From an uncultured Flavobacteriales bacterium (GTDB lineage: Bacteria; Bacteroidota; Bacteroidia; Palsa-965), in NCBI GenBank assembly GCA_903873905.1, contig CAIQQJ010000094.1:1-45804 (forward strand): 45,804 nt of DNA, written 5' to 3'. This document shows positions 346 through 15,906 of the stretch, one piece after another. The stretch's first letter is position 1. The number at the start of each line of letters is the position of its first letter. The notes beneath the pieces were generated by a model, which did no database searches, was not told the DNA's origin, and was given only the letters and a program-made list of their open reading frames with translations. The translations under genes and the position numbers were made by a program.

Positions 346-1875
346 ATGGAATCGACACCTACTACCCAGCATCTTTCGGAACAAGAAATTGTCCGAAGAA
401 ACAAACTTGATGAAATTCGCAAACTCGGAATTGATCCGTATCCAGCAGCAGAATTTCCTGTGAATGTTACTGCAAAAGACATTCATGAAAATTACGAACG
501 CGACAAAACCAATTACAAGGACATTTCCATTGCAGGAAGAATCATGACTATTCGCGTTATGGGAAATGCATCATTTGCTTCCTTGCAAGACACAACAGGT
601 AGAATTCAATTATACATTCGCCGTGACGATGTTTGTCCTGGAGAAGACAAAACTTTATACAACACTGTTTTCAAAAAGCTAATTGATATTGGAGATATCA
701 TTGGTGTTTCCGGTTATGTTTTTACAACACAGACAGGAGAAATTTCCATCCATGTTACGTCGTTTAAAATTCTGAGCAAATCATTAAGACCACTTCCTAT
801 TGTGAAAGTGGATGAAAGTGGAACAGCCCATGATGTGGTTACTGATCCGGAATTGCGTTATCGTCAGCGTTATGTTGATTTGATCATCAATCCAACCGTG
901 AAAGAAACATTCATGAAGCGCACGAAAATGATCAATACGATTCGTGAATTTTTAAATGATTCCGGATTGTTGGAAGTGGACACACCGGTGTTGCAGGCCA
1001 TTCCTGGTGGCGCGTTGGCGCGTCCGTTCATTACACATCACAATGCACTTGATGTTCCTTTTTATTTGCGCATTGCGAATGAACTTTATTTGAAACGCTT
1101 GATTGTTGGCGGATTTGATGGCGTGTATGAATTCTCGCGAAATTTCCGCAATGAAGGAATGGATCGCACACATAATCCGGAATTCACTGTTCTTGAATAT
1201 TATGTTGCGTATAAAGATTACGAGTGGATGATGAAGAATTGTGAAACGATGATTGAAAAAATCGCAATGAATCTTCATGAAAAAACTGAATTGACTGTTG
1301 GGGAAAACGTAATTGATTTTTCCGCACCGTTCAAGCGCATCACTATTTTTGATTCGATTAAAGAACATACAGGTGATGATGTGAGTGAAATGAATGAGGA
1401 GGCTTTGCATGCGGTTTGTAAAAAACACAATGTTCCATTTGACAAGACGATGGGACGTGGAAAATTGATTGATCAAATTTTCGGAGAGAAGTGCGAAGGA
1501 AAATATATTCAACCAACTTTCATCACGGATTATCCGATTGAAATGTCACCCTTGACAAAAAAGCATCGCAGCAAAGCTGGATTGGTTGAGCGATTTGAGT
1601 TGATGGTGAATGGAAAAGAAATTGCGAATGCCTACACAGAGTTAAATGATCCTATTGATCAGCGTGAACGTTTTGAAGAGCAAGTGAAATTGATGGAGCG
1701 CGGTGATGATGAAGCGATGTTCATTGATCATGATTTCTTGCGTGCGCTCGAATACGGAATGCCACCAACAGCAGGAATTGGAATTGGAATTGATCGTCTC
1801 GCCATGTTGATGACGAATAACGTTTCCATTCAGGATGTTTTGTTTTTCCCACAAATGCGTCCAGAGAAGTTCTAA
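346..1875 (+). CDS. lysS: Lysine--tRNA ligase, class II
   Basis: This enzyme charges tRNA-Lys with lysine using ATP, in the cytoplasm. The 509-residue product has the class II LysRS layout: an N-terminal OB-fold anticodon-binding domain (about residues 55-180), then the catalytic core with motif 2 (FRNEGMDRTHNPEF, from residue 267) and motif 3 (GIGIGIDRLAML, D483). The length is usual for bacterial LysRS. An upstream in-frame start at 325 exists, but the -7 box at 333-340 lies inside that extension, so the ATG at 346 (MESTPTTQHL) is chosen. The mRNA would then be essentially leaderless. A long AT-rich inverted repeat begins at its stop codon. Identification is secure. Confidence 0.97.
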   Translation: MESTPTTQHLSEQEIVRRNKLDEIRKLGIDPYPAAEFPVNVTAKDIHENYERDKTNYKDISIAGRIMTIRVMGNASFASLQDTTGRIQLYIRRDDVCPGEDKTLYNTVFKKLIDIGDIIGVSGYVFTTQTGEISIHVTSFKILSKSLRPLPIVKVDESGTAHDVVTDPELRYRQRYVDLIINPTVKETFMKRTKMINTIREFLNDSGLLEVDTPVLQAIPGGALARPFITHHNALDVPFYLRIANELYLKRLIVGGFDGVYEFSRNFRNEGMDRTHNPEFTVLEYYVAYKDYEWMMKNCETMIEKIAMNLHEKTELTVGENVIDFSAPFKRITIFDSIKEHTGDDVSEMNEEALHAVCKKHNVPFDKTMGRGKLIDQIFGEKCEGKYIQPTFITDYPIEMSPLTKKHRSKAGLVERFELMVNGKEIANAYTELNDPIDQRERFEEQVKLMERGDDEAMFIDHDFLRALEYGMPPTAGIGIGIDRLAMLMTNNVSIQDVLFFPQMRPEKF

Positions 1876-1932
1876 TTTTTGAGTTCTGAATTTTGAAATC
1901 AAATTATTCTGATTTGAAAAACTCAAAAATTA
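1873..1932 (+). terminator. AT-rich inverted repeat after lysS, possible terminator
   Basis: TAATTTTTGAGTT (1873-1885, including the stop codon) is the exact reverse complement of 1920-1932. A smaller AAATCA/TGATTT pair is nested inside. The stem has few GC pairs, so termination strength is uncertain. Confidence 0.45.
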
Positions 1933-1983
1933 AAATTCAAAATCACTGTGCGTGCTTTCCATGAAAAATAAAAATTGGCTTAA

Positions 1984-4071
1984 ATGAAAAAATCAAGTTT
2001 CGTCTGGTTGCTCATTGTTCCGGCAATTGTAATGACGTTCAATTTTTTCTTTGTCAAGAACCAGGAAAAGTTTTTCATGAACTGGACAGATCCCAGTTAT
2101 GCCTATTTGTTTAATGGAATGAATCTTGCAAATGGCACGATGGAAGTTGGTCACGTTGACCATCCTGGTACAACAATCCAAATGGCCGCTGCGGTTTTCA
2201 TCAAGGCGATTCATGTTGTTTCGGGAAAAAACCCTGATTTGGTTACGGATGTTTTGAGTGACCCAGAAAAGTATTTACATGCGCTCTCTTTTATTTTTGT
2301 GTTGGCTTGTAGCATTGTGTTATTCTATTTGGGATCTGTGATTAAGCGGGTCAGCAACAACCTTGCGCTTGCCGTTTTTATGCAGTCGGGAATTCTTGTT
2401 TCATTTATTTCACTCACTTGCATGGCTGACATTCGAACAGAGCCATTTTTGATTTTGGGTGGTTTTATTCTTGTTGCGCTCCTCTTTTCTTTCATTCATG
2501 AAAAGGAAATTTCAACAAGACGCATGTATGGCTACAGCATTAAATTCGCGGCCATCTGTGGGTTTCTGATTGTTTCAAAAATGACGGCCATTCCACTGAT
2601 CATTCTTCCAATATTCCTATTGAGAAAATGGAGAAGTTGGATACTCTATTCGTCGGGGCTTGTTGCATTCGCCGCTTTATTCATGATTCCTGCATTATCG
2701 AAAATGAATTTTCTGATCAGTTGGATTGTGCGACTCTTTACACATACGGGAATGTATGGTTCGGGTGAAGCAAAAATTGTTGACGTAAATGCTTTCAAAT
2801 GGGATTTGTGGTACATGTTCAGAGATGATCTTCCATTTACAATTTCTTGCCTGCTGATGTTGTCAACTATTTTATTTTTGACTTTCGCCGGAAAATTTAA
2901 ATTTCGATTTTGGAAAGAAAATGCAAGTCTTCGATTATTGATGGGAATTTTTCTTGTTACAGTTGTTTGTATTCTTATTGTCGCCAAACATTTTAAATAT
3001 CACTACCTCATTCCTGCCGACAGCTTGATGATGTTGGGGGCCTATCTGTCGCTTCGGTTAACCTTTCCTTCCACAAGCAAGGGTTTTCATTTACTGAGAA
3101 ACAAAACAATTCAGATTGTTGGTGTTGTTCTGATTATTGGCTTGTGTTCGTTTATCGATATCGACAGGTATGATTTTTATGAAAATTTTAAAAATCCAAA
3201 ATCGGAAACGGCAAGTGTTATGGCAAAATACAAGAATGTGCCACGCCTCTATATGACCTATGAATATTATTTCGCTGAAGTTCCTCCTGCCCTTTATTTT
3301 GGAACATGTTATGCCGGCACCACTCGATTTGAATATTATGCAAAACTCAAAAAACTTTATCCAAAGAGCTATTTCTATTCGATTGTCGACAATGAGTTTC
3401 ACCAATGGGGTTCAACTTTTGAGTTGGGTGATCTGGTCAATAAAAACAAACAAACACTAGTTAGTTTTTATGTTAATGACACTACAATTGTAGAGCAGTC
3501 ACTTGCTGTTTTACGGCAATTGAATCGTGGCAATAAAGTCATAGACTTAAAAAGAGTTTATGTCAACACTACCACTGGAGAGCGCTTGTATGAAATGAAT
3601 CGAATCGGCGAAATGAAAACCATTCCTGATTCCGCTCTTGTAACCATCTGCGACGTTGAAAAAATTCTTGATGGTTCATTGATTTCAAACGATGAGAGTT
3701 TGCATTTTCAGGGAATCGAAGCAAAAACAAATAAGGAAAAACATTCAGGTAGTGCCTCGTTGGAATTGACAAACACAATTCAATTTGGTATGGGGTTTGA
3801 AATAAAAGTAAATGTGGGAGACCATTTTGAAATTTCAGCATGGAGAAAAAGCGCAGAAGGAAGAGGTGTTTTGGTGGTAACTGGAATGAATGGAAAGTTT
3901 TACAAATCCAGTTCATCAGTTGTGGAGCAAGGTGAAAACGGTTGGGAAAAAATCAGAATGAGTGTTGATATCCCTTCAGATTATATCGGCGGTTCGCTGA
4001 AAGGTTATGCGTGGAATGAAGGTGAAAAGTCTTCAATCTATTTCGATGACCTTACCATTGTTCAATATTGA
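1984..4071 (+). CDS. GT-C type membrane glycosyltransferase with C-terminal jelly-roll-like domain
   Basis: The 695-residue protein is predicted to transfer sugars from a polyprenyl-phosphate donor on the outer face of the inner membrane. About ten hydrophobic segments fill residues 5-400. An acidic residue in the first external loop (NWTDPSYAY, D36) followed by HVDHPGT (57-63) is typical of the GT-C/PMT (family 39-like) fold. The last 130 residues or so are soluble, beta-rich and end in YFDDLTIVQY, resembling a carbohydrate-binding jelly roll. Its 3' end faces the convergent gene at 4084 across 12 bp. An 8-codon ORF at 1961-1987 overlaps its ATG. The substrate cannot be read from sequence. 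Confidence 0.8.
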   Translation: MKKSSFVWLLIVPAIVMTFNFFFVKNQEKFFMNWTDPSYAYLFNGMNLANGTMEVGHVDHPGTTIQMAAAVFIKAIHVVSGKNPDLVTDVLSDPEKYLHALSFIFVLACSIVLFYLGSVIKRVSNNLALAVFMQSGILVSFISLTCMADIRTEPFLILGGFILVALLFSFIHEKEISTRRMYGYSIKFAAICGFLIVSKMTAIPLIILPIFLLRKWRSWILYSSGLVAFAALFMIPALSKMNFLISWIVRLFTHTGMYGSGEAKIVDVNAFKWDLWYMFRDDLPFTISCLLMLSTILFLTFAGKFKFRFWKENASLRLLMGIFLVTVVCILIVAKHFKYHYLIPADSLMMLGAYLSLRLTFPSTSKGFHLLRNKTIQIVGVVLIIGLCSFIDIDRYDFYENFKNPKSETASVMAKYKNVPRLYMTYEYYFAEVPPALYFGTCYAGTTRFEYYAKLKKLYPKSYFYSIVDNEFHQWGSTFELGDLVNKNKQTLVSFYVNDTTIVEQSLAVLRQLNRGNKVIDLKRVYVNTTTGERLYEMNRIGEMKTIPDSALVTICDVEKILDGSLISNDESLHFQGIEAKTNKEKHSGSASLELTNTIQFGMGFEIKVNVGDHFEISAWRKSAEGRGVLVVTGMNGKFYKSSSSVVEQGENGWEKIRMSVDIPSDYIGGSLKGYAWNEGEKSSIYFDDLTIVQY

Positions 4072-4083
4072 ACAAGTGAAAAA

Positions 4084-5496
4084 TCAAATGAATTTTATTT
4101 TTCTCAAGGCAAAGAAACTCATTCCAAGAAGTATGAGTCCGTGTCTGAAACGCGAAATGTTTGTTTCCCCATAAGTGCGGTCACGGTATCGAATCGGAAC
4201 TTCAACAATTCTCAGATTGAGTTTGTGCGCTCCAAACAATAAATCGAAATCTCCGAAAGGATCAAAGTCGCCGAAGTATTCCCTGTTCACGACTAATTTA
4301 TCATAGTCCTTCTTGAACAAAACTTTTGTTCCGCAAAGTGTGTCTTTTATTCTTTGTTCCAAGAGCCAGGAAAATACCATACTGAAAAAATGATTTCCCA
4401 AAAGATTTAAAAAACGCATAGCTTCCTTTTCCATTGGATAAACCAAGCGCGTGCCATTGATAAAATCTCCTTTGCCAGAAGCTATTGCATTATAAAATTT
4501 AGGAAGATCTTCTGGCGGCATCGTCAAATCAGCATCAAGAATCATAAGTATATCTCCATCCGCAATATCATATCCCAATCGAACAGCATCTGCTTTTCCT
4601 TTGCCGGGTTGTTTTGCAATTTTTATGTCGTGCGTTGTCGAATATTTTTTCTGGATCTCCTGAATTTTTTCCCAAGTATCATCCGTTGAGTTGCCTTCAA
4701 CGAAAATGAATTGTGTGTGTTTGCCCATTATTGGCGTGCGAAGAATTGCAGCTTCAATATTTCCACTTTCATTTCTTGCAGGAACAATTACGCTCACAGA
4801 AAAATTATTTTCTTCCTGAAAAACCTTGCTTTCTGAAGCAAATTTTGCAAATGTGAATATGTTGATTGACATCCAACGGAAGAGAAAGAAATTGCCAAGA
4901 TATCTATTGACGAGAAAAGACAAGAGTGGAATGTAAACAGGAAAAATCATACGCTTGCTATTCCTGTATACCTCAAGGCCGGCGAGATATAAAAGATTAT
5001 TGATGTCTTTAAGCGTAAGCCAGTTTTGCGTAGGGGTTTTTGTTTTGAGTCCAAAAATCTCAGAAAGCTTCAGAAGCGGCTCCCAAACATAATTGTAATA
5101 GGTAATGATGACTTTGGAATTTCTATGCATCACTTTGGGAAGTTGCTCGAATAACTTCTGAACATCTTCAACATGACCAATGAGATTTGAAATTAGAATT
5201 AAGTCAAATTTTTCATTGAGAGAAATGTCTAAAGCGTCCATCAATTGAAATTCCGTTTCCGGATATTTCTTCTTGGCCACCTCAATCATTGCCGGACTAA
5301 AATCAATTCCAACTTTTCGTTTGCCCTTTATCCTCCCAATGAGATCTCCACCACCAGAACCAATTTCAAGAACACTGATATCCTTATGGGAAAAATAATT
5401 ACAATACTTTTCAATGTCCTTCCAGTAGTAGGCATTAAATCCTCTTTTCGTTTGCTTTGATGCAATGCGATCGAAGTAGCTTACTTTGTTTTCCAT
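4084..5496 (-). CDS. Bifunctional protein: SAM methyltransferase fused to family 2 glycosyltransferase
   Basis: Two enzymes sit in one 470-residue chain. Residues 1-200 form a class I SAM-dependent methyltransferase with the motif I glycine loop VLEIGSGGGD (42-51). From about residue 230 there is a GT-A glycosyltransferase of family 2, resembling dolichyl- or polyprenyl-phosphate mannose synthases: VSVIVPARNESGN start, ILDADLTMP metal-binding DAD motif, and a RDRTYGETNISRFRHG C-terminal signature. The start ATG at 5496 follows the TGA of the upstream methyltransferase gene with no spacer (TGAATG), so the two are probably translationally coupled. A role in making or modifying a lipid-linked sugar used by the GT-C enzymes on either side is inferred from context. 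Confidence 0.88.
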   Translation of the reverse strand: MENKVSYFDRIASKQTKRGFNAYYWKDIEKYCNYFSHKDISVLEIGSGGGDLIGRIKGKRKVGIDFSPAMIEVAKKKYPETEFQLMDALDISLNEKFDLILISNLIGHVEDVQKLFEQLPKVMHRNSKVIITYYNYVWEPLLKLSEIFGLKTKTPTQNWLTLKDINNLLYLAGLEVYRNSKRMIFPVYIPLLSFLVNRYLGNFFLFRWMSINIFTFAKFASESKVFQEENNFSVSVIVPARNESGNIEAAILRTPIMGKHTQFIFVEGNSTDDTWEKIQEIQKKYSTTHDIKIAKQPGKGKADAVRLGYDIADGDILMILDADLTMPPEDLPKFYNAIASGKGDFINGTRLVYPMEKEAMRFLNLLGNHFFSMVFSWLLEQRIKDTLCGTKVLFKKDYDKLVVNREYFGDFDPFGDFDLLFGAHKLNLRIVEVPIRYRDRTYGETNISRFRHGLILLGMSFFALRKIKFI

Positions 5497-6252
5497 TCAG
5501 ATTTTTTCTATTTCTATTGTGACAAACATACCTAATTGAGTTGAAAACGGACTCAGTATTTTTTCAAAGCCGCGGAAAAATGAAAAAGACCAGGTAGGCA
5601 CCAATTGTTTCATTGACAAACCGCCACTGATCAAATAACGAAGTGGCGAGTGATAACGGAACGTTTTCAATTTCAGCGATGGAAATTCCTTCTCGAATTT
5701 TTCTTTGTCTCGTTTAAAAAATATCCAAGGCAAGGCACCATTCGCTCCGGAAAGCGGCCCCGTCGATTCAATTTCCCATCCCCCTTTTGGATTAAAAGGT
5801 TCATGATGAAAATTCTTATAAACGATTCTCGACCAAAATGAATTGGCCGGTTCAATCAGAATAATTTTTCCGCCTTTTTTTAAAGTGCGTTGTGCCTCAT
5901 TGAGAAATGCTGCGGGTTTTGGAATGTGATGAAAAACATTCAGCATGACTATCGCGGAAAGTTCTCCTTCTTTGAACGGAATTTTTTCGGCGGAAAAAAC
6001 CATTTCTACACCTTCCAATTCCAAAATATCGGAGGTGATGACCTTTGGAATTACCTGTTTCAAAAAACCGCCACCGGAACCGATCTCAAGAATTTTTCCT
6101 TCTTTGAATTCATGCGTGTTGTTTTGAAAAACAGAATACCATTCAGAATAAAGTTTTTTTAGAAATGGTTTTGAAAGTATCAGGTCGCGATGGTATAAGG
6201 TCGTACGCGGATCGTCGAGTGAATAAGGAGATTTTGGCAAGTACAAACCCAT
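5497..6252 (-). CDS. Class I SAM-dependent methyltransferase
   Basis: The 251-residue protein has motif I KILEIGSGGGFLKQ (about 53-66) and a helix-loop MLNVFHHIPKPAAF typical of Methyltransf_11-like enzymes, followed by KKGGKIILIEPAN. The C-terminal third is hydrophobic and aromatic, suggesting a bulky or lipid-linked acceptor, but the substrate is unknown. It is the first gene of a two-gene minus-strand operon with the methyltransferase-GT2 fusion, and it diverges from the GT-C gene at 6382. A degenerate -7 box (TAATTTCG, complement of 6305-6312) is present upstream. Confidence 0.85.
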   Translation of the reverse strand: MGLYLPKSPYSLDDPRTTLYHRDLILSKPFLKKLYSEWYSVFQNNTHEFKEGKILEIGSGGGFLKQVIPKVITSDILELEGVEMVFSAEKIPFKEGELSAIVMLNVFHHIPKPAAFLNEAQRTLKKGGKIILIEPANSFWSRIVYKNFHHEPFNPKGGWEIESTGPLSGANGALPWIFFKRDKEKFEKEFPSLKLKTFRYHSPLRYLISGGLSMKQLVPTWSFSFFRGFEKILSPFSTQLGMFVTIEIEKI

Positions 6253-6368
6253 TTCTGAAAGCTATTTCTCCTGTGAAAAATGAAATTCTAATTCTAAAGT
6301 GCTGCGAAATTAAGACTTTTTGAGGGATAGTTATTGCATTTCGGACTTTCAATTACTTCATATGGTTT

Positions 6369-6376
6369 ACCTTTGA
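6369..6376 (+). promoter_or_regulatory. -7 box (TACCTTTG) of the GT-C gene
   Basis: Exact TAnnTTTG match ending 5 nt before the ATG at 6382. It argues that 6382, not the in-frame start at 6334, is the true start. Confidence 0.65.
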
Positions 6377-6381
6377 TAGGC

Positions 6382-8454
6382 ATGCTCAAGCCACACCAAA
6401 ATTCCGACAAAATATTTCTCACTCTTCTCGGAGTTATTACGATTCTTGGATTTGCTCTTCGTCTTCACGGATTGAGTTCAGAATCCATTACCGCTGATGA
6501 AGCAAGTGCACTTTTCCGTTTGAAATTTCCATCCTTTCCGGCAATGATAGAAGGAGGAGTGCGACCGGATGGTCATCCTGCTTTTACACAAGTCTTCCTA
6601 TGGTTCTGGACCAAATGTTTTGGATGGAGCGAGTTTTCAATTCGAATTCCATTCGCCCTCTTCGGAACAGCTAGTATTTGGTTGTCGGGAATTATCGGGA
6701 GAAAATGGTTTTCAAATTCCACAGGACTGGCAACTGCAATTGGAATTGCGTTTTTACAATTTCCATTAATGTATTCGCAGTTGGCTCGCCCCTATGCGCC
6801 GGGATTATTCTTTACATTATTGGCGGTTTATTTTTTGTCGCGGTTTATCAATGAAAACTCAACACACAAAAGAGACATTATTGGATTTGCATTTGCTGCT
6901 GCGTTGGCTGCTTATTCACATTATTTCAGTTTGCTGACTACAACATTAATCGCATTTGTGGGATTGTTTTTTGTCGCGAAAAAAATGCGTCTAAAATATT
7001 TACTGGCCTGCACTCTTGCTGTTTTATTATTCCTTCCACACCTTTCCATTACATTAAGTCAAATTGAAATCGGTGGAATCGGCGGACCGAATGGTTGGCT
7101 GGGAAAACCAACGCCTGCATTTCTTCTTGATCATTTGAGATTTGCATTCGACGGATCTCGAGGCTTGATGTTCATTTCGTTTATCGTTTGTTGTTTGTCG
7201 TTTGTCGTTTTCTATAAACGACCTGATAAATTCCAATTGTTGGTCCTTTTGATTTGGATTTTACCAATGGTAATCGGTTATGTGTATTCCATTGAGAAAA
7301 ACCCTGTTTTACAAAATTCCGTTTTGTTATTCGGATTTCCATTTCTGTTGATGTTTTTGTTTTCAAGATTGCCGGATTTCAATTCAAAAAAGATTGCAAT
7401 CATTTTTCCTGCTGGATTTGCAATTGTGTTTTTCTCCTATGTAACATTTTATAAACCATATCATCTCTCTGATCATTTCGGAAGATTGAAAGAGCTGGTT
7501 TCAATAGCTCTCGATTGGCAAGAAAAAGCTGCTATGGACGGAAAAAATGCAGATGTGTTTTACAATGTGGATGGTCCCTTCATGCTGGAATATAATTGCG
7601 ATCGAATTGGAAAATGTCCGGAAAACATTCTGGGAACAATCAATAATGGGCAAAATGAATTAGTGGGATTCAGAAATATTGTTGAAAATTCAAACACCGA
7701 TTATTTCATTTATGGTTGGAGTACAAAATATTCGCCCTTGGAAATTCTTCCAATTATTCAAGAGAAATTTCCATTCTTGATTAAAAAAAACGAATGGTTT
7801 AATTCCGCTATATATATTTTTTCAACCCATTCTCCAGCTGATAAACTCATTGAGAAGAATAGAATTTTCGAATCAGATAAAATTTTTGAAGATTCTCCTT
7901 TGTCAGAGCTTGAGTTTGATTCAACAAACAAACAGCGCGAAACTTCCAATTGGAGCAAGCCTTGTAAAGTTGAAATGATTGATACTTCACAACAGAATTT
8001 TCCAAGTGATATTGTAAATGGTCATTACACTCCACACATAGATCTTTCCCCTAATTATCAAATTCGCCTCGACAGCACCTGCATTTATTCTCCCTCATTA
8101 AAAAAGAAAGTGGGAGACATTTTAATAAATCCTGATAATGAGATTTTTTTTACTGCCCATGTAAAGTTGTTGGATAGTTTATCGAACATTATTCTTGTTA
8201 TCGAATTTCAGCGCGATGGGAAACAATTGTATTGGAACGGAATGGAATCAACAACACAGATCAATCCAATGAATTGGAATCAACGGCAGCATGTTTATTT
8301 CGGTTTGCGTTTACCTTCAGATCTTCTATTAACAGACACCGTTAATTTTTATTGCTATTCAAAAAATGGCCTTCCCATTTTGATTGATTATTTACAAGTT
8401 AAAACCTTAAAAGGACATCCAAATATTTACGGCCCAAGACCCGGGTTCAAATAA
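6382..8454 (+). CDS. GT-C type membrane glycosyltransferase (PMT/ArnT-like)
   Basis: The 690-residue protein starts at MLKPHQNSDK, chosen because a -7 box sits 5 nt upstream. The N-terminal half has about ten membrane segments and the family 39/PMT_2 signatures: SITADEASALFRL in the first external loop (Asp-Glu pair) and RPDGHPAFTQ shortly after. These fit a polyprenyl-phosphate-sugar-dependent transferase acting on the periplasmic side. From about residue 440 the chain is soluble, ending in a beta-rich domain with the signature ILIDYLQVKTL. The same layout appears in the proteins at 1984 and 34134. Acceptor and donor are unknown. Confidence 0.83.
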   Translation: MLKPHQNSDKIFLTLLGVITILGFALRLHGLSSESITADEASALFRLKFPSFPAMIEGGVRPDGHPAFTQVFLWFWTKCFGWSEFSIRIPFALFGTASIWLSGIIGRKWFSNSTGLATAIGIAFLQFPLMYSQLARPYAPGLFFTLLAVYFLSRFINENSTHKRDIIGFAFAAALAAYSHYFSLLTTTLIAFVGLFFVAKKMRLKYLLACTLAVLLFLPHLSITLSQIEIGGIGGPNGWLGKPTPAFLLDHLRFAFDGSRGLMFISFIVCCLSFVVFYKRPDKFQLLVLLIWILPMVIGYVYSIEKNPVLQNSVLLFGFPFLLMFLFSRLPDFNSKKIAIIFPAGFAIVFFSYVTFYKPYHLSDHFGRLKELVSIALDWQEKAAMDGKNADVFYNVDGPFMLEYNCDRIGKCPENILGTINNGQNELVGFRNIVENSNTDYFIYGWSTKYSPLEILPIIQEKFPFLIKKNEWFNSAIYIFSTHSPADKLIEKNRIFESDKIFEDSPLSELEFDSTNKQRETSNWSKPCKVEMIDTSQQNFPSDIVNGHYTPHIDLSPNYQIRLDSTCIYSPSLKKKVGDILINPDNEIFFTAHVKLLDSLSNIILVIEFQRDGKQLYWNGMESTTQINPMNWNQRQHVYFGLRLPSDLLLTDTVNFYCYSKNGLPILIDYLQVKTLKGHPNIYGPRPGFK

Positions 8455-8518
8455 AAAAATGTTTAACCAAAATCCCCAATAACATTCGGTGACGAAAGAA
8501 AGATTTAAATAATTTCCC

Positions 8519-8546
8519 AAGTCCCGAGTCCCAAGTCCTTAGTCCC
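8519..8546. repeat. Short degenerate tandem AGTCCC repeat
   Basis: Four copies of (A/G)AGTCCC-like units with a roughly 7-9 bp period stand just upstream of the gpsA promoter. No function is evident. Confidence 0.5.
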
Positions 8547-8554
8547 TTTTTTCG

Positions 8555-8562
8555 TAAATTCG
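8555..8562 (+). promoter_or_regulatory. -7 box (TAAATTCG) of gpsA
   Basis: One mismatch to TAnnTTTG, ending 6 nt before the ATG at 8569; same geometry as the lysS promoter. Confidence 0.5.
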
Positions 8563-8568
8563 CCAACC

Positions 8569-9570
8569 ATGAGTCACAAAATAGCAGTTATTGGAGGAGG
8601 AAGCTGGGCAACAGCAATCATCAAAATGCTTTGCAATAATGTAAATGGCAATGAAAAGATCGGTTGGTGGATTCGGCATGAAGAGACTATTGATTACATA
8701 AAAAAGTTTCGGCACAACCCTCGCTACCTGAGTTCAGTTGAATTGCAGTTAGATCACCTTGAACTTTCCACCGACATCGCCGCTACAATTAGAAATCATG
8801 AAATAATCATCATGGCGGTTCCTGCGGCTTTCCTTGAAGATTCACTCAAGGGTTTGACGAAAGATGATTTTAAAAACAAAATTATTTTTTCTGCCATTAA
8901 AGGAATTGTTCCTCGCCCTCTTTTAATTGTTGGGGAATATTTCAATCAAGAATTTTCAGTTCCCTATTCACACATTGGCGTCATCACAGGCCCTTGTCAC
9001 GCGGAAGAAGTTGCTTTGGAAAAACTTTCTTACCTCACGATCGCTTCTCAATCCAATAATTTCGCGCAGTTTGTTGCCGATAAAATTTCCTGTCGCTATA
9101 TCCGTGCCTCTGTTTCAGATGATATTTATGGCACAGAAATTTCTGCCGTTCTCAAAAATGTTTTCGCAATCGCCAGTGGAATTTGTCATGGACTAGGTTA
9201 CGGCGACAATTTTCAAGCCGTATTGATTGCCAATTCCATTCAGGAAATTTCCCGATTTGTAAAAGCGGTGCATCCAATTGATCGCGACATAAAAAGCAGC
9301 GCCTACCTCGGCGATTTATTGGTTACTGCCTATTCCCAATTCTCTCGCAACAGAATGTTTGGCGCAATGATTGGAAAAGGTTATTCCGTGAAAATGGCTC
9401 AACTGGAAATGGAAATGATTGCTGAAGGTTATTATGCGGTGAAATGCATCAAGGAAATTAACTCAAAATATAATGTGAACATGCCCATAACGGATGCGGT
9501 GTATCACATCCTTTACGAAAGAATTTCTCCTGTGATTGAAATAAAATTATTGACAGATAAGCTTTCCTGA
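8569..9570 (+). CDS. gpsA: NAD(P)+-dependent glycerol-3-phosphate dehydrogenase
   Basis: The enzyme reduces dihydroxyacetone phosphate to sn-glycerol 3-phosphate, the backbone for phospholipid synthesis, in the cytoplasm. The 333-residue length is usual. The Rossmann glycine loop IAVIGGGSWATA starts at residue 5, ITGPCHAEEV lies mid-protein, and the EISAVLKNVFAIASGICHGLGYGDN block carries the expected catalytic lysine. A near-consensus -7 box lies 6 nt before the ATG. The gene is flanked by membrane glycosyltransferase-like genes, but its role is probably general lipid synthesis. Confidence 0.95.
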   Translation: MSHKIAVIGGGSWATAIIKMLCNNVNGNEKIGWWIRHEETIDYIKKFRHNPRYLSSVELQLDHLELSTDIAATIRNHEIIIMAVPAAFLEDSLKGLTKDDFKNKIIFSAIKGIVPRPLLIVGEYFNQEFSVPYSHIGVITGPCHAEEVALEKLSYLTIASQSNNFAQFVADKISCRYIRASVSDDIYGTEISAVLKNVFAIASGICHGLGYGDNFQAVLIANSIQEISRFVKAVHPIDRDIKSSAYLGDLLVTAYSQFSRNRMFGAMIGKGYSVKMAQLEMEMIAEGYYAVKCIKEINSKYNVNMPITDAVYHILYERISPVIEIKLLTDKLS

Positions 9571-13146: not shown

Positions 13147-14115
13147 TTACCAACTCGGACAACTGCCAAGACGATATTTTATTGGCGGCTTTTTACAGGA
13201 AAACTGATAGCCCAAAGTAATTTCATGTGATCCCGCAGAAGCATTTGTCAATTTGGAAACCGTCACATCATAACTGTATCCCAAGCGCAAGGAATTTACT
13301 TCCATGCCCAACAAAATAATGAATGAGTCATTTCCACGATACCACATTCCACCAACAATTGTTCCCTTACGAACATAAACGCCCATGTTCAGTTGTTTGA
13401 AATCACCCTGTTGCTGATAAAGTATGTTGGGTGAAATAACAGTTTCATCTGAGTAACTGCTTGCCTTATTCACAGGAATGTTTGCTCCTGCATGAAAAGT
13501 ATATTTTCTTGGTAATGGACTTTGTCCGTCAATGAAAGATTCATTCGGTTCGAGAATATGATGTACCGCTCCACCGGCAAATAAATATTTTGATGAAATC
13601 AACATGCCACATGCGAGATCAAAATTTCCGACCGATTGTTTTCCTGGAGCTTCATTTGTGGTCCAAATAAATCCGCGTTGTGGATCAATCTGATCACCGA
13701 AAGTGAGTTTGCTCCAATTCACTGTTTTCTGCCAATAGCCCGCTTGTATTGCCGCAGTAACAGAAACTTTTCTGGTGATCGGAATTACCGGTGCGTAAAT
13801 AAGTCCAACGCCGGTTGTTTGCAATGTTCCTTTCGCCGCATTGTCATTCACCACCATCAATCCAATGCCGCCTTTCACTTTGTAAGCAAGTTTGTCAATG
13901 GAAACACCAACGGTTGAATACGTGCCATAAATTCCAGGCCATTGCATTCGATAAGAAATATTTACCCGCGGACAAACTCTGTTCCCTGCCAATGCGGGAT
14001 TCAGGTAAAGTGGGTTTGCATAAAATTGTGTGAATTCAGGATCCTGTGCGCGCAGACTTAACACTGCAAGAATTCCGCAAAATCCCAATAGGAAAATTTT
14101 GTAGGATTGTTTCAT
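13147..14115 (-). CDS. PorP/SprF family type IX secretion outer-membrane protein
   Basis: The 322-residue protein has an N-terminal signal peptide (MKQSYKIFLLGFCGILAVL to about LRAQ) followed by the PorP/SprF hallmark QDPEFTQFYANPLYLNPALAG and a barrel of alternating beta strands. Proteins of this family sit in the outer membrane and work with the type IX secretion machinery, often for substrates with type B C-terminal signals. Residues 139-151 (FGDQIDPQRGFIW) form a conserved segment that is nearly duplicated in the putative anti-sigma protein encoded upstream. The start at 14115 gives a standard signal peptide; 14142 is an alternative. It lies downstream of the sigma/anti-sigma pair on the same strand, 388 bp away. 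Confidence 0.9.
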   Translation of the reverse strand: MKQSYKIFLLGFCGILAVLSLRAQDPEFTQFYANPLYLNPALAGNRVCPRVNISYRMQWPGIYGTYSTVGVSIDKLAYKVKGGIGLMVVNDNAAKGTLQTTGVGLIYAPVIPITRKVSVTAAIQAGYWQKTVNWSKLTFGDQIDPQRGFIWTTNEAPGKQSVGNFDLACGMLISSKYLFAGGAVHHILEPNESFIDGQSPLPRKYTFHAGANIPVNKASSYSDETVISPNILYQQQGDFKQLNMGVYVRKGTIVGGMWYRGNDSFIILLGMEVNSLRLGYSYDVTVSKLTNASAGSHEITLGYQFSCKKPPIKYRLGSCPSW

Positions 14116-14287
14116 GATATGTGTTTTAAAAGGTGATGCCAATTAAAAGACGCAAGTCATGATTGGAGGTTGCCTTATATTACAAAGAAAGAGTAAGCAA
14201 AATTTCAGATTTTCACAGAACATTTTTTATCTGCCAACCGAATGCATTTTTCATTGGTAATTGGTAATCGACAAATCCGTAATCATT

Positions 14288-14402
14288 AAGGCGTGTCCTT
14301 CCTGCGTCAGGTCGGGCTATTCGCTGCAAGTCCTCAACCGTAGTGTTGGGTTTGAAAACCCGACACCACGTCTTCCGGGCTTTCCACTTCTATCCCTCAC
14401 GC
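14288..14402 (-). repeat. Dispersed intergenic repeat, copy C, with hairpin
   Basis: On the minus strand it reads GCGTGAGGGATAG, then GTGGAAAGCCCGGAAGACG, an 11-bp palindrome with one G-T pair (14343-14353 with 14356-14366), GAGGACTTGCAGCGAATAGC, and CACGCCTTA. It closely matches copy D at 33858-33999 in opposite orientation. It directly follows the T-tract of the terminator at 14403-14432. The rest of the 14116-14503 gap holds CACCTGTC-type short repeats and presumably the porP promoter; no gene is seen. Confidence 0.75.
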
Positions 14403-14432
14403 AAAAAAAGTTCCCATAAGGAAACTCTTTGC
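14403..14432 (-). terminator. Terminator after the sigma/anti-sigma operon
   Basis: On the minus strand AGTTTCC and GGGAACT pair around a TTAT loop (7 bp, one G-T pair) and are followed by seven T residues. It sits about 70 bp beyond the stop codon at 14504. Confidence 0.6.
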
Positions 14433-14503
14433 ATATTGAAATGATCAAAAAAATTACTGTCTTTTTCACCTGTCACCTGTCCCTTGTCACCGGCCCCTCC
14501 AAC

Positions 14504-15250
14504 TCACCCTCCAATATCAAACCCCTGTTGATCTCCATTTGTTGGTGTTCCTTTCGACGGGGAATTCGTTGGAATGGAATCTGAAGAACGAAGCGGTTTA
14601 ATGGTTGCCTTGATTCCTGTCGAATCTTTTTTGAGAATTATTTTTTTTACATTTCCATTTTCGGAATCATAAAAAACATTTGGATTGGGATCAGTTATGT
14701 TTTGAGAAACCACATTATTATTTTCCTGCGTTTTATAAATAAACCCTTTTCGCGGATCAATCTGATCACCGAATCTCAAGGAAGAATTTTTCTGTTTTTT
14801 TGTTTTCGCACTTCCGTCTGCATTGATTGTTGCAGCAGTTTGTTCACTTGTTGATGTTACCGCAAGTGCATTTTCATTTTGTGCTTGTCGCGTTTCACCA
14901 GAAACTTCCGTTGAATTATTGGAGACTGTTGGAGAAGAATGATTCACCGAAACATTGCTTTGTTCAGGTGCGTTCTTTTGAGTTGCAGAAATCGATCTCG
15001 GAGATTCTGAATTCGCCTTGCCGGAATGCGTTGCCAATGCATAACCTAAAGCTGAAATTCCCAATATTCCAATTGCAACCAAAATCGTGTTCAAGGAAAT
15101 TTTCCAATGAAAGCGAGTGGCCTTGGGCAAAGTATTCAACGAACGGCTCATAGCGTCCCAGTCAGCTCCGTTGGCGGGAGCCTCATAGTCGCTTAGCCGG
15201 TCGTGTACCGCCCGGAAAAGTTTGTCATCGTGTAGTTGTCCGTTCTCCAT
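14504..15250 (-). CDS. Single-pass membrane protein, putative anti-sigma factor carrying a PorP-like peptide
   Basis: The 248-residue product is not a database-recognisable enzyme. Residues 1-45 (DDKLFRAVHDRLSDYEAP, then WDAMSRSLNTLP) match a short helical motif common at the N-terminus of Bacteroidota membrane proteins encoded beside ECF sigma factors. One membrane helix follows (about 51-73), then a Ser/Asn/Thr/Gln-rich linker (74-155), then FGDQIDPRKGFIY at 160-172. This last segment copies the PorP family peptide FGDQIDPQRGFIW encoded at 13147-14115. The gene overlaps the sigma factor gene by 26 bp, indicating coupled translation. The topology would place the PorP-like peptide in the periplasm. 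The anti-sigma role is inferred from layout, not from a classical zinc-binding domain, which is absent. Confidence 0.7.
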   Translation of the reverse strand: MENGQLHDDKLFRAVHDRLSDYEAPANGADWDAMSRSLNTLPKATRFHWKISLNTILVAIGILGISALGYALATHSGKANSESPRSISATQKNAPEQSNVSVNHSSPTVSNNSTEVSGETRQAQNENALAVTSTSEQTAATINADGSAKTKKQKNSSLRFGDQIDPRKGFIYKTQENNNVVSQNITDPNPNVFYDSENGNVKKIILKKDSTGIKATIKPLRSSDSIPTNSPSKGTPTNGDQQGFDIGG

Positions 15251-15806
15251 CTGCTTGTTTAATAAGGTTATTTAAATTTTTCTTGAGCTGGAAGCGGGCC
15301 TTCGCCAAATTCGACTTTGAAGTTCCTTCGCTGATACCAAGTTGGTCTGCAATTTCTTTATGTGGTAGATCTTCCATCACATACAGATTGAAAACAGTCC
15401 GGTAGGCAGGACTCAATTGGCTAACCGCATAAAGAATTTCTTCTTCCGATAGGTTGTTCAACAAGTTGTCCTCTTCTACTTCCTCGGCAGCATCAGGAAT
15501 ATCCCCTTCACGCGCATAAACGGTAGACACAATCATGTATTCATGTTTGTTGCGCCTCAAGTGATCCACTGAAGTATTTACAATTATTCTCCGCACCCAA
15601 CCTTCAAAAGAACCCTTGAAGCCAAAATTGCGAATCGATGTAAATACTTTGATGAAACCTTCTTGTAGCATATCGCTGGCCTCGTCGTGATTCTTGGCAT
15701 AACGCAGGCATACGCCTTTCATTTTACCATAGAACCGCTTATAGAGCGCTTCCTGACAGGCTCTGTCCTGTCGTATGCAACCGGCGATAAGTTCGTTGTC
15801 TGTCAT
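15225..15806 (-). CDS. RNA polymerase ECF sigma factor (SigP-like)
   Basis: The 193-residue protein has both ECF domains. Region 2 contains YAKNHDEASDMLQEGFIKVFTSI and FEGWVRRIIVNTSVDHLRR. Region 4 contains LSPAYRTVFNLYVMEDLPHKEIADQLGISEGTSKSNLAKAR. The central segment (about 95-120) is acidic. It is the first gene of an operon with the overlapping membrane protein and lies upstream of a PorP/SprF gene. In Porphyromonas gingivalis the ECF factor SigP controls type IX secretion genes, so an analogous role is reasonable but not proven. A short inverted repeat (GGTAG/CTACC, about 15812-15829) lies just before the ATG. Confidence 0.92.
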   Translation of the reverse strand: MTDNELIAGCIRQDRACQEALYKRFYGKMKGVCLRYAKNHDEASDMLQEGFIKVFTSIRNFGFKGSFEGWVRRIIVNTSVDHLRRNKHEYMIVSTVYAREGDIPDAAEEVEEDNLLNNLSEEEILYAVSQLSPAYRTVFNLYVMEDLPHKEIADQLGISEGTSKSNLAKARFQLKKNLNNLIKQADGERTTTR

Positions 15807-15906
15807 TTTGCGGTAGGGGGTCCGCTACCTTTTACGCCTATATGACGCCAAAAGGTTCTGGTGGTTGCCCAGAATTTTAGTATTCACTAGAAATTAGGGT
15901 GATTTT

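Follow-up and report, generated by a model that had tools for sequence, protein, structure and literature searches.

Why would a membrane protein encoded beside a sigma factor gene carry a peptide resembling part of an outer-membrane carrier? The question is raised by three genes at 13147-15806 of the window, the whole stretch of 45,804 nucleotides analysed here. The answer that we consider somewhat probable is that the sigma/anti-sigma pair would sense the balance between type-B cargo and carrier of the type IX secretion system (T9SS), through a carrier-loop decoy on the anti-sigma protein.

The gene set and its conservation

The three genes were assigned as follows.

15225-15806, minus strand: ECF sigma factor gene, 193 aa (Pfam Sigma70_r2, 5.6e-16, and r4_2, 6.1e-16; TIGR02937, 5.6e-30; sigma tree)
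14504-15250, minus strand: predicted anti-sigma factor gene, 248 aa (open reading frame; homology of the N-terminus; sigma gene adjacent in 24 genomes)
13147-14115, minus strand: PorP/SprF-family outer-membrane carrier gene, 322 aa (PF11751, 2.3e-63; TIGR03519, 3e-72; 14-strand AF2 model)

A preliminary description of this DNA had named an ECF sigma, anti-sigma and PorP set. Its coordinates and its 26-bp overlap between the sigma and anti-sigma genes were borne out by the open reading frame list, and the set itself is supported by Pfam, NCBIfam, homology and the conserved neighbourhood. The sigma factor consists of regions 2 and 4 only and has the anti-sigma gene next door, as in the ECF group (Pfam, NCBIfam, tree), and the PorP protein scored above the cut-offs of TIGR03519/PF11751 and was modelled as a 14-strand outer-membrane barrel. 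The membrane protein at 14504-15250 matched no Pfam or NCBIfam family; the gene overlap, the N-terminal homology and the architecture suggest an anti-sigma factor that would bind and inhibit the sigma factor. Two parts of this protein are placed as listed.

15125-15223, minus strand: predicted cytoplasmic sigma-binding region, residues 10-42, two helices with E-x-P-x5-W-x2-M (AF2; conservation)
15029-15094, minus strand: single membrane helix, residues 53-74 (hydropathy; AF2 helix 53-74; basic residues on the N-side)

AF2 placed the N-terminal helices at residues 10-20 and 28-39 with modest confidence, and W31 and L38 were invariant in an alignment of 24 anti-sigma sequences. The hydropathy profile had one peak of 2.14 at residues 55-73, the next best value being 0.14. 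The tail appears disordered, with pLDDT below 50 for residues 79-147 and the tail end (from a shallow alignment), and model confidence was low outside the helices. Hydropathy and AF2 thus agree with the architecture described earlier, one membrane helix followed by a long outer linker.

Relatives were sought in 395 sampled genomes of the class, with the membrane protein as query and then with its profile. In 24 of these genomes, which come from five families and include every near-complete genome of the window's order (7/7), the anti-sigma gene adjoined an ECF sigma gene. Loss of the PorP-like motif from orthologous anti-sigma proteins had been named beforehand as the result that would count against the claim; the peptide was kept in 24/26 related anti-sigma proteins across five families, and the claim stands. 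All 24 peptide-type proteins have one membrane helix and, in the distal part of the tail, the pattern F-[GP]-D-[QM]-[IL]-D-x3-G-x4-[TS]-x-[ED] or something very near it. A motif-bearing porP directly follows in 19/24 loci, and five loci are without a neighbouring porP. At two related loci, whose sigma is 61-68% identical to that of a family member, the motif, a neighbouring porP and a GGCAAC-type promoter were all missing; peptide, porP and promoter go together.

Some neighbours of these loci were noted in their own right. In genome G006 (L212:1-3959) the place of the linked porP is taken by two large, near-identical tandem genes of unassigned function. In three families (L064:1-858, L061:2-715 and L078:1-747) the gene before sigma specifies a protein whose C-terminal domain (CTD), FSPDNDGY.D.L.I.Y, is unusual; it has a CHU_C score near the cut-off and matched neither CTD class well, and one of these proteins also carries a lamin-tail domain.

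The PorP-like peptide and its place in the carrier

The peptide and its counterpart in the carrier lie at the following positions.

14723-14773, minus strand: PorP loop-3 mimic peptide of the anti-sigma protein, residues 160-176, FGDQIDPRKGFIYKTQE (conservation; shuffle test)
13651-13701, minus strand: matching motif in PorP, residues 139-155, predicted extracellular loop L3 between strands 5 and 6 (AF2 strands 118-132 and 161-174)
13150-13203, minus strand: predicted periplasmic C-tail of PorP with conserved Cys (SCKK...SCPSW), candidate track-attachment cysteine (alignment)

A recount of the sequences confirmed the peptide positions and the 14/21 identical residues given earlier: FGDQIDPRKGFIY begins at anti-sigma residue 160, the pattern continuing ..T.E, and FGDQIDPQRGFIW begins at PorP residue 139. 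The 20-bp stretch GGATCAATCTGATCACCGAA is likewise exact in both genes (0.01 expected by chance), at 13682-13701 and at 14754-14773, the second copy having been placed one position too low, at 14753-14772, in the preliminary description. It is the longest exact match among 19 anti-sigma/porP pairs, the others spanning 5-15 bp, and is therefore an accident of shared codons. A recent origin of the peptide by copying of PorP DNA was rejected, as the 20-bp run was unrepeated in other genomes. Conservation resides in the protein and the DNA identity is incidental.

At the protein level, a profile built from PorPs unlinked to a sigma gene scored each of the 24 anti-sigma tails above all of its 2,000 shuffles (z 6.0-18.5). 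The motif is the most conserved segment of the anti-sigma proteins, at 2.86 bits per column against 2.34 in the sigma-binding region and 0.92 in the linker. No co-variation with the partner-PorP peptide was visible in the 19 pairs compared. A second, weaker conserved stretch follows the peptide at residues 190-211 (Y194, D209). These figures make it very improbable that the resemblance is chance, or a structural short hairpin functionally unrelated to PorP. The motif is short and the linker of low complexity, as such a reading would have it, and the 24/24 shuffle result, the conservation peak, the adjacent porP in 19/24 loci and the shared promoter described below speak strongly against it.

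Where the motif lies in the carrier bears on what the peptide might copy. The window PorP was modelled with a pLDDT of 78 and a pTM of 0.73, loop L3 itself at lower confidence (pLDDT about 56-66). Residues G140, D141, I143, D144 and G148 were invariant in 24 PorPs, which had been gathered by the motif. In Flavobacterium johnsoniae the periplasmic C-tail Cys of SprF and of PorG is bound to GldK (PMC12635249); both barrel ends would accordingly be periplasmic, which would make the motif loop the extracellular L3. A PDB sequence search returned no solved PorP relative, and a fold search with the PorP model returned FadL, OmpG and PorV-type barrels only. In the T9SS translocon structure, solved for PorV and type-A cargo, the cargo CTD is held within the pore by extracellular loops of the carrier (PMC10994853), and for type-B cargo the carrier role falls to PorP/SprF proteins (PMC12618676, PMC9143113). 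Because carrier loops grip CTDs and PorP carries type-B cargo, the anti-sigma protein probably presents to the periplasm a copy of the loop by which the carrier binds cargo. The earlier claim of PorP mimicry thus holds as to the resemblance and its conservation in orthologues; the PorP site lies in the modelled extracellular L3 and not in a periplasmic part, and competition for a periplasmic partner (PorK/N/E) is therefore not the leading idea.

Cargo, sister anti-sigma factors and a shared promoter

We then ask which cargo such a loop might read. The source genome holds 21 PorPs and 44 type-B CTD family matches. By coordinate comparison, a cargo gene immediately precedes 16/21 PorP genes; the remainder comprise a tandem pair before gldKLMN, one partial match, a PorP before gldJ and the window PorP, where the anti-sigma gene stands in the usual place of the cargo gene. 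That the motif is common to all PorPs was rejected, as it was found in only 2/21 (rows L013 and L016 of that alignment, both read in a wrong frame, were left out). Its two carriers are the gldJ-linked PorP and the window PorP, neither of which has an adjacent cargo gene. The gldJ-linked gene lies at L004 (G000:C43) 791-8829, with porV and porU divergent to porP and gldJ, and a motif-bearing gldJ-linked PorP is widespread in the class. At L208:2688-10001 the gldKLMN operon is preceded by two tandem PorP genes, both without the loop motif.

CTDs of orphan cargo, encoded without their own PorP, were found to form a class, with a mean identity of 41.3% among themselves vs 30.2% to others (0/5,000 shuffles as high). 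In F. johnsoniae one orphan carrier serves three orphan CTDs (PMC12618676). From this class and this precedent, the motif-bearing PorPs are strong candidates for a general carrier role towards orphan cargo.

The anti-sigma lineage itself leads to the same cargo class. The N-terminus and membrane helix of the window protein are homologous to those of sister anti-sigmas of 400-450 aa that have PKD domains and end in a type-B CTD (TIGR04131/CHU_C; hhalign probability 98.8, E 6.6e-17). L103 and L104 score above the TIGR04131 cut-off and L079/L085 above the Pfam CHU_C cut-off, the other sister CTDs falling below; the window protein had no TIGR04131/CHU_C match and is not itself type-B cargo by this measure. 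In the sigma tree, peptide-type and sister sigmas form one clade (99/99), with the peptide-type sigmas as one group inside it (98/91). No genome had both anti-sigma types among the matches listed, the whole-genome search with the CTD-type profile being dominated by cargo proteins. All 14 sister CTDs scored better with an orphan-class than with a dedicated-class model (mean +11.6 bits); in a leave-one-out control, 0/11 dedicated and 17/19 orphan CTDs scored as orphan. One anti-sigma form therefore imitates a carrier, and its sister form imitates the class of cargo which this carrier would serve. The proposition that one ECF sigma lineage would monitor the T9SS by two complementary mimicries, carrier loop in the window and cargo sorting domain in the sisters, is one we regard as evenly balanced; both would read the carrier-cargo interface, so that the cell would measure the type-B cargo/carrier balance.

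The PKD and type-B CTD anti-sigmas are widespread (L085-L104, e.g. L104:2525-3793, minus strand, and L103:3640-4986, minus strand), and their adjoining ECF sigma genes have a GGCAACC-N15-CGTC-type promoter. Two same-lineage anti-sigmas, L098:3309-5147 (plus strand) and L093:5792-6817 (minus strand), have an N-terminus resembling tandem sigma-binding units (E-x-P..W..M repeated), and the former ends in a barrel-like domain.

The promoter motif occurs in the window at two places.

15844-15869, minus strand: predicted promoter of the sigma operon, GGCAACC-N15-CGTC (motif scan of the window)
14149-14174, minus strand: predicted promoter before porP, GGCAACC-N15-CGTC (motif scan of the window)

These were the only matches in the window, where 0.08 would be expected. 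The motif was present before 23/23 peptide-type sigma genes, 18/19 linked porP genes and 12/13 sister sigma genes, the last scanned with a slightly looser pattern. Intergenic copies in the source genome precede porW/sprE (E 1e-126), bamD and nadK-porG-uppS-bamA-skp; two other families have copies before porP-gldJ, and G092 has one before porP-gldKLMN. Genome-wide, GGCAAC-N-CGTC had 17 matches vs 6 in a reversed control, many of them inside genes; about one third of the matches would be expected by chance, and individual predicted targets therefore remain candidates. At L199:223-6696 a nadK-porG-uppS-bamA-skp-skp operon lies behind a GGCAACC-N-CGTC site, placing an NAD kinase within a T9SS/BAM operon. 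The earlier tie of the locus to T9SS control is thereby supported also through promoters, those of sigma, porP and other T9SS genes.

Readings of the locus and known systems

The cargo-sensing reading builds on the gene set, the conserved peptide, the modelled loop position, the shared promoter and the sister anti-sigmas with a cargo CTD, all obtained by computation. An ECF sigma factor controlling T9SS genes would be kept at the inner membrane by the anti-sigma protein, whose disordered periplasmic tail would show a copy of the PorP/SprF loop that grips the type-B cargo CTD. When export lags, waiting periplasmic cargo would bind the decoy loop, and the bound anti-sigma would release sigma by conformational change or proteolysis. 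Once free, sigma would turn up expression of its operon, of the carrier porP and of further genes for the T9SS and for outer-membrane assembly, until no backlog is left. What we infer here is that the anti-sigma protein binds sigma, that the peptide binds the CTD, in which direction the switch works and how sigma is released. Several points count against this reading: the five loci without an adjacent porP, the lack of visible peptide co-variation, and the many promoter matches inside genes. An 18-residue loop outside its barrel might also bind weakly, and the solved contact between carrier and CTD involves PorV and type-A cargo, whereas the reading concerns PorP and type-B cargo (PMC10994853).

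Other partners for the peptide were weighed against the same evidence. The preliminary description had the peptide mimic a periplasmic PorP contact and compete for GldK/PorK, PorN, GldJ or PorE, so that sigma would read machine assembly and not cargo. Its link to T9SS control stands, and a motif-bearing PorP is encoded beside gldJ in the source genome and in others, the linked PorPs keeping a C-tail Cys like the GldK-binding one (PMC12635249). We nevertheless hold competition for a periplasmic partner to be unlikely: the model puts the motif in extracellular loop 3, across the outer membrane from the periplasmic ring, the PorPs of the gldKLMN operon are without it, and the cargo CTD of the sister anti-sigmas points to the carrier-cargo interface.

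It is similarly doubtful that PorP itself receives the tail, with the peptide filling the site that binds L3, inside or on a barrel that is empty or unfolded, so that sigma would read free carrier supply. The anti-sigma gene does occupy the usual place of PorP's partner gene, and porP as a predicted sigma target would give a simple feedback loop; however, L3 is out of reach from the periplasm in the folded barrel as modelled, five loci have no adjacent porP, and the CTD of the sister form is unexplained unless the two forms work by different logic. Engagement of the peptide by the SprA translocon lumen, like a protruding carrier loop, would let sigma read idle translocons, and we regard it as improbable. 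The loops of carriers reach into the SprA pore, CTDs touch loop and SprA alike (PMC10994853), and porW/sprE is a predicted target, but carrier loops come in from outside via the lateral gate, and a contact of SprA with this motif is conjectural.

If the cargo-sensing reading is true, direct tests can start from a defined sensor, ligand pair, promoter sequence and set of targets, and secretion-part mimicry would join the ways in which anti-sigma factors sense the envelope. It would bear on how bacteria other than Porphyromonas gingivalis adjust T9SS expression to the need for export, and draws attention to a PorP loop as a possible reader of type-B CTDs. Searches of a set of open-access papers, aimed in part at anti-sigma factors and the T9SS, yielded no anti-sigma factor with a carrier loop or T9SS sorting domain, in line with the earlier impression that such a PorP mimic was undescribed.

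Backed-up outer-membrane traffic is reported by a membrane anti-sigma in Escherichia coli, where RseA is cut by DegS, a protease sensing OMP C-termini; here, unlike there, the proposed ligand site would be on the anti-sigma tail itself, as a carrier mimic. In P. gingivalis an ECF sigma, SigP, also controls T9SS genes, and PorA, a CTD protein, is able to feed into the control signal (PMC4800418, PMC7712824). The likeness is functional, as the input there comes via the PorXY two-component system and PorA is a secreted protein, not an anti-sigma. The SM6 promoters of F. psychrophilum share CGT in the -10 box, and their set includes a PorG homologue, GldN, PorU and a sigma/anti-sigma operon (THC0290_1774/1773; PMC9723704), a likeness of gene content and CGT box only. 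The orphan carrier Fjoh_1677 (PMC12618676) belongs to the same PorP/SprF family as the window PorP and likewise does not lie behind a cargo gene, whereas the window PorP is linked to an anti-sigma gene.

The likeness in architecture is to the Dma dual membrane-spanning anti-sigmas, found in Bacteroidota only (PMC13088901), which have an N-terminal sigma-binding region, one membrane helix, a long disordered periplasmic tether and an adjoining sigma gene. The window protein has the predicted N-terminal region followed by one membrane helix and a long disordered tether, and two N-terminal profile matches (L084/L090 and L098) show Dma-like architecture. The C-terminal outer-membrane beta-barrel of Dma proteins is absent from the AF2 model of the window protein, which has only 248 aa and no family match in Pfam or NCBIfam. 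In place of the barrel it has a short copy of a carrier loop, together with predicted targets in the T9SS.
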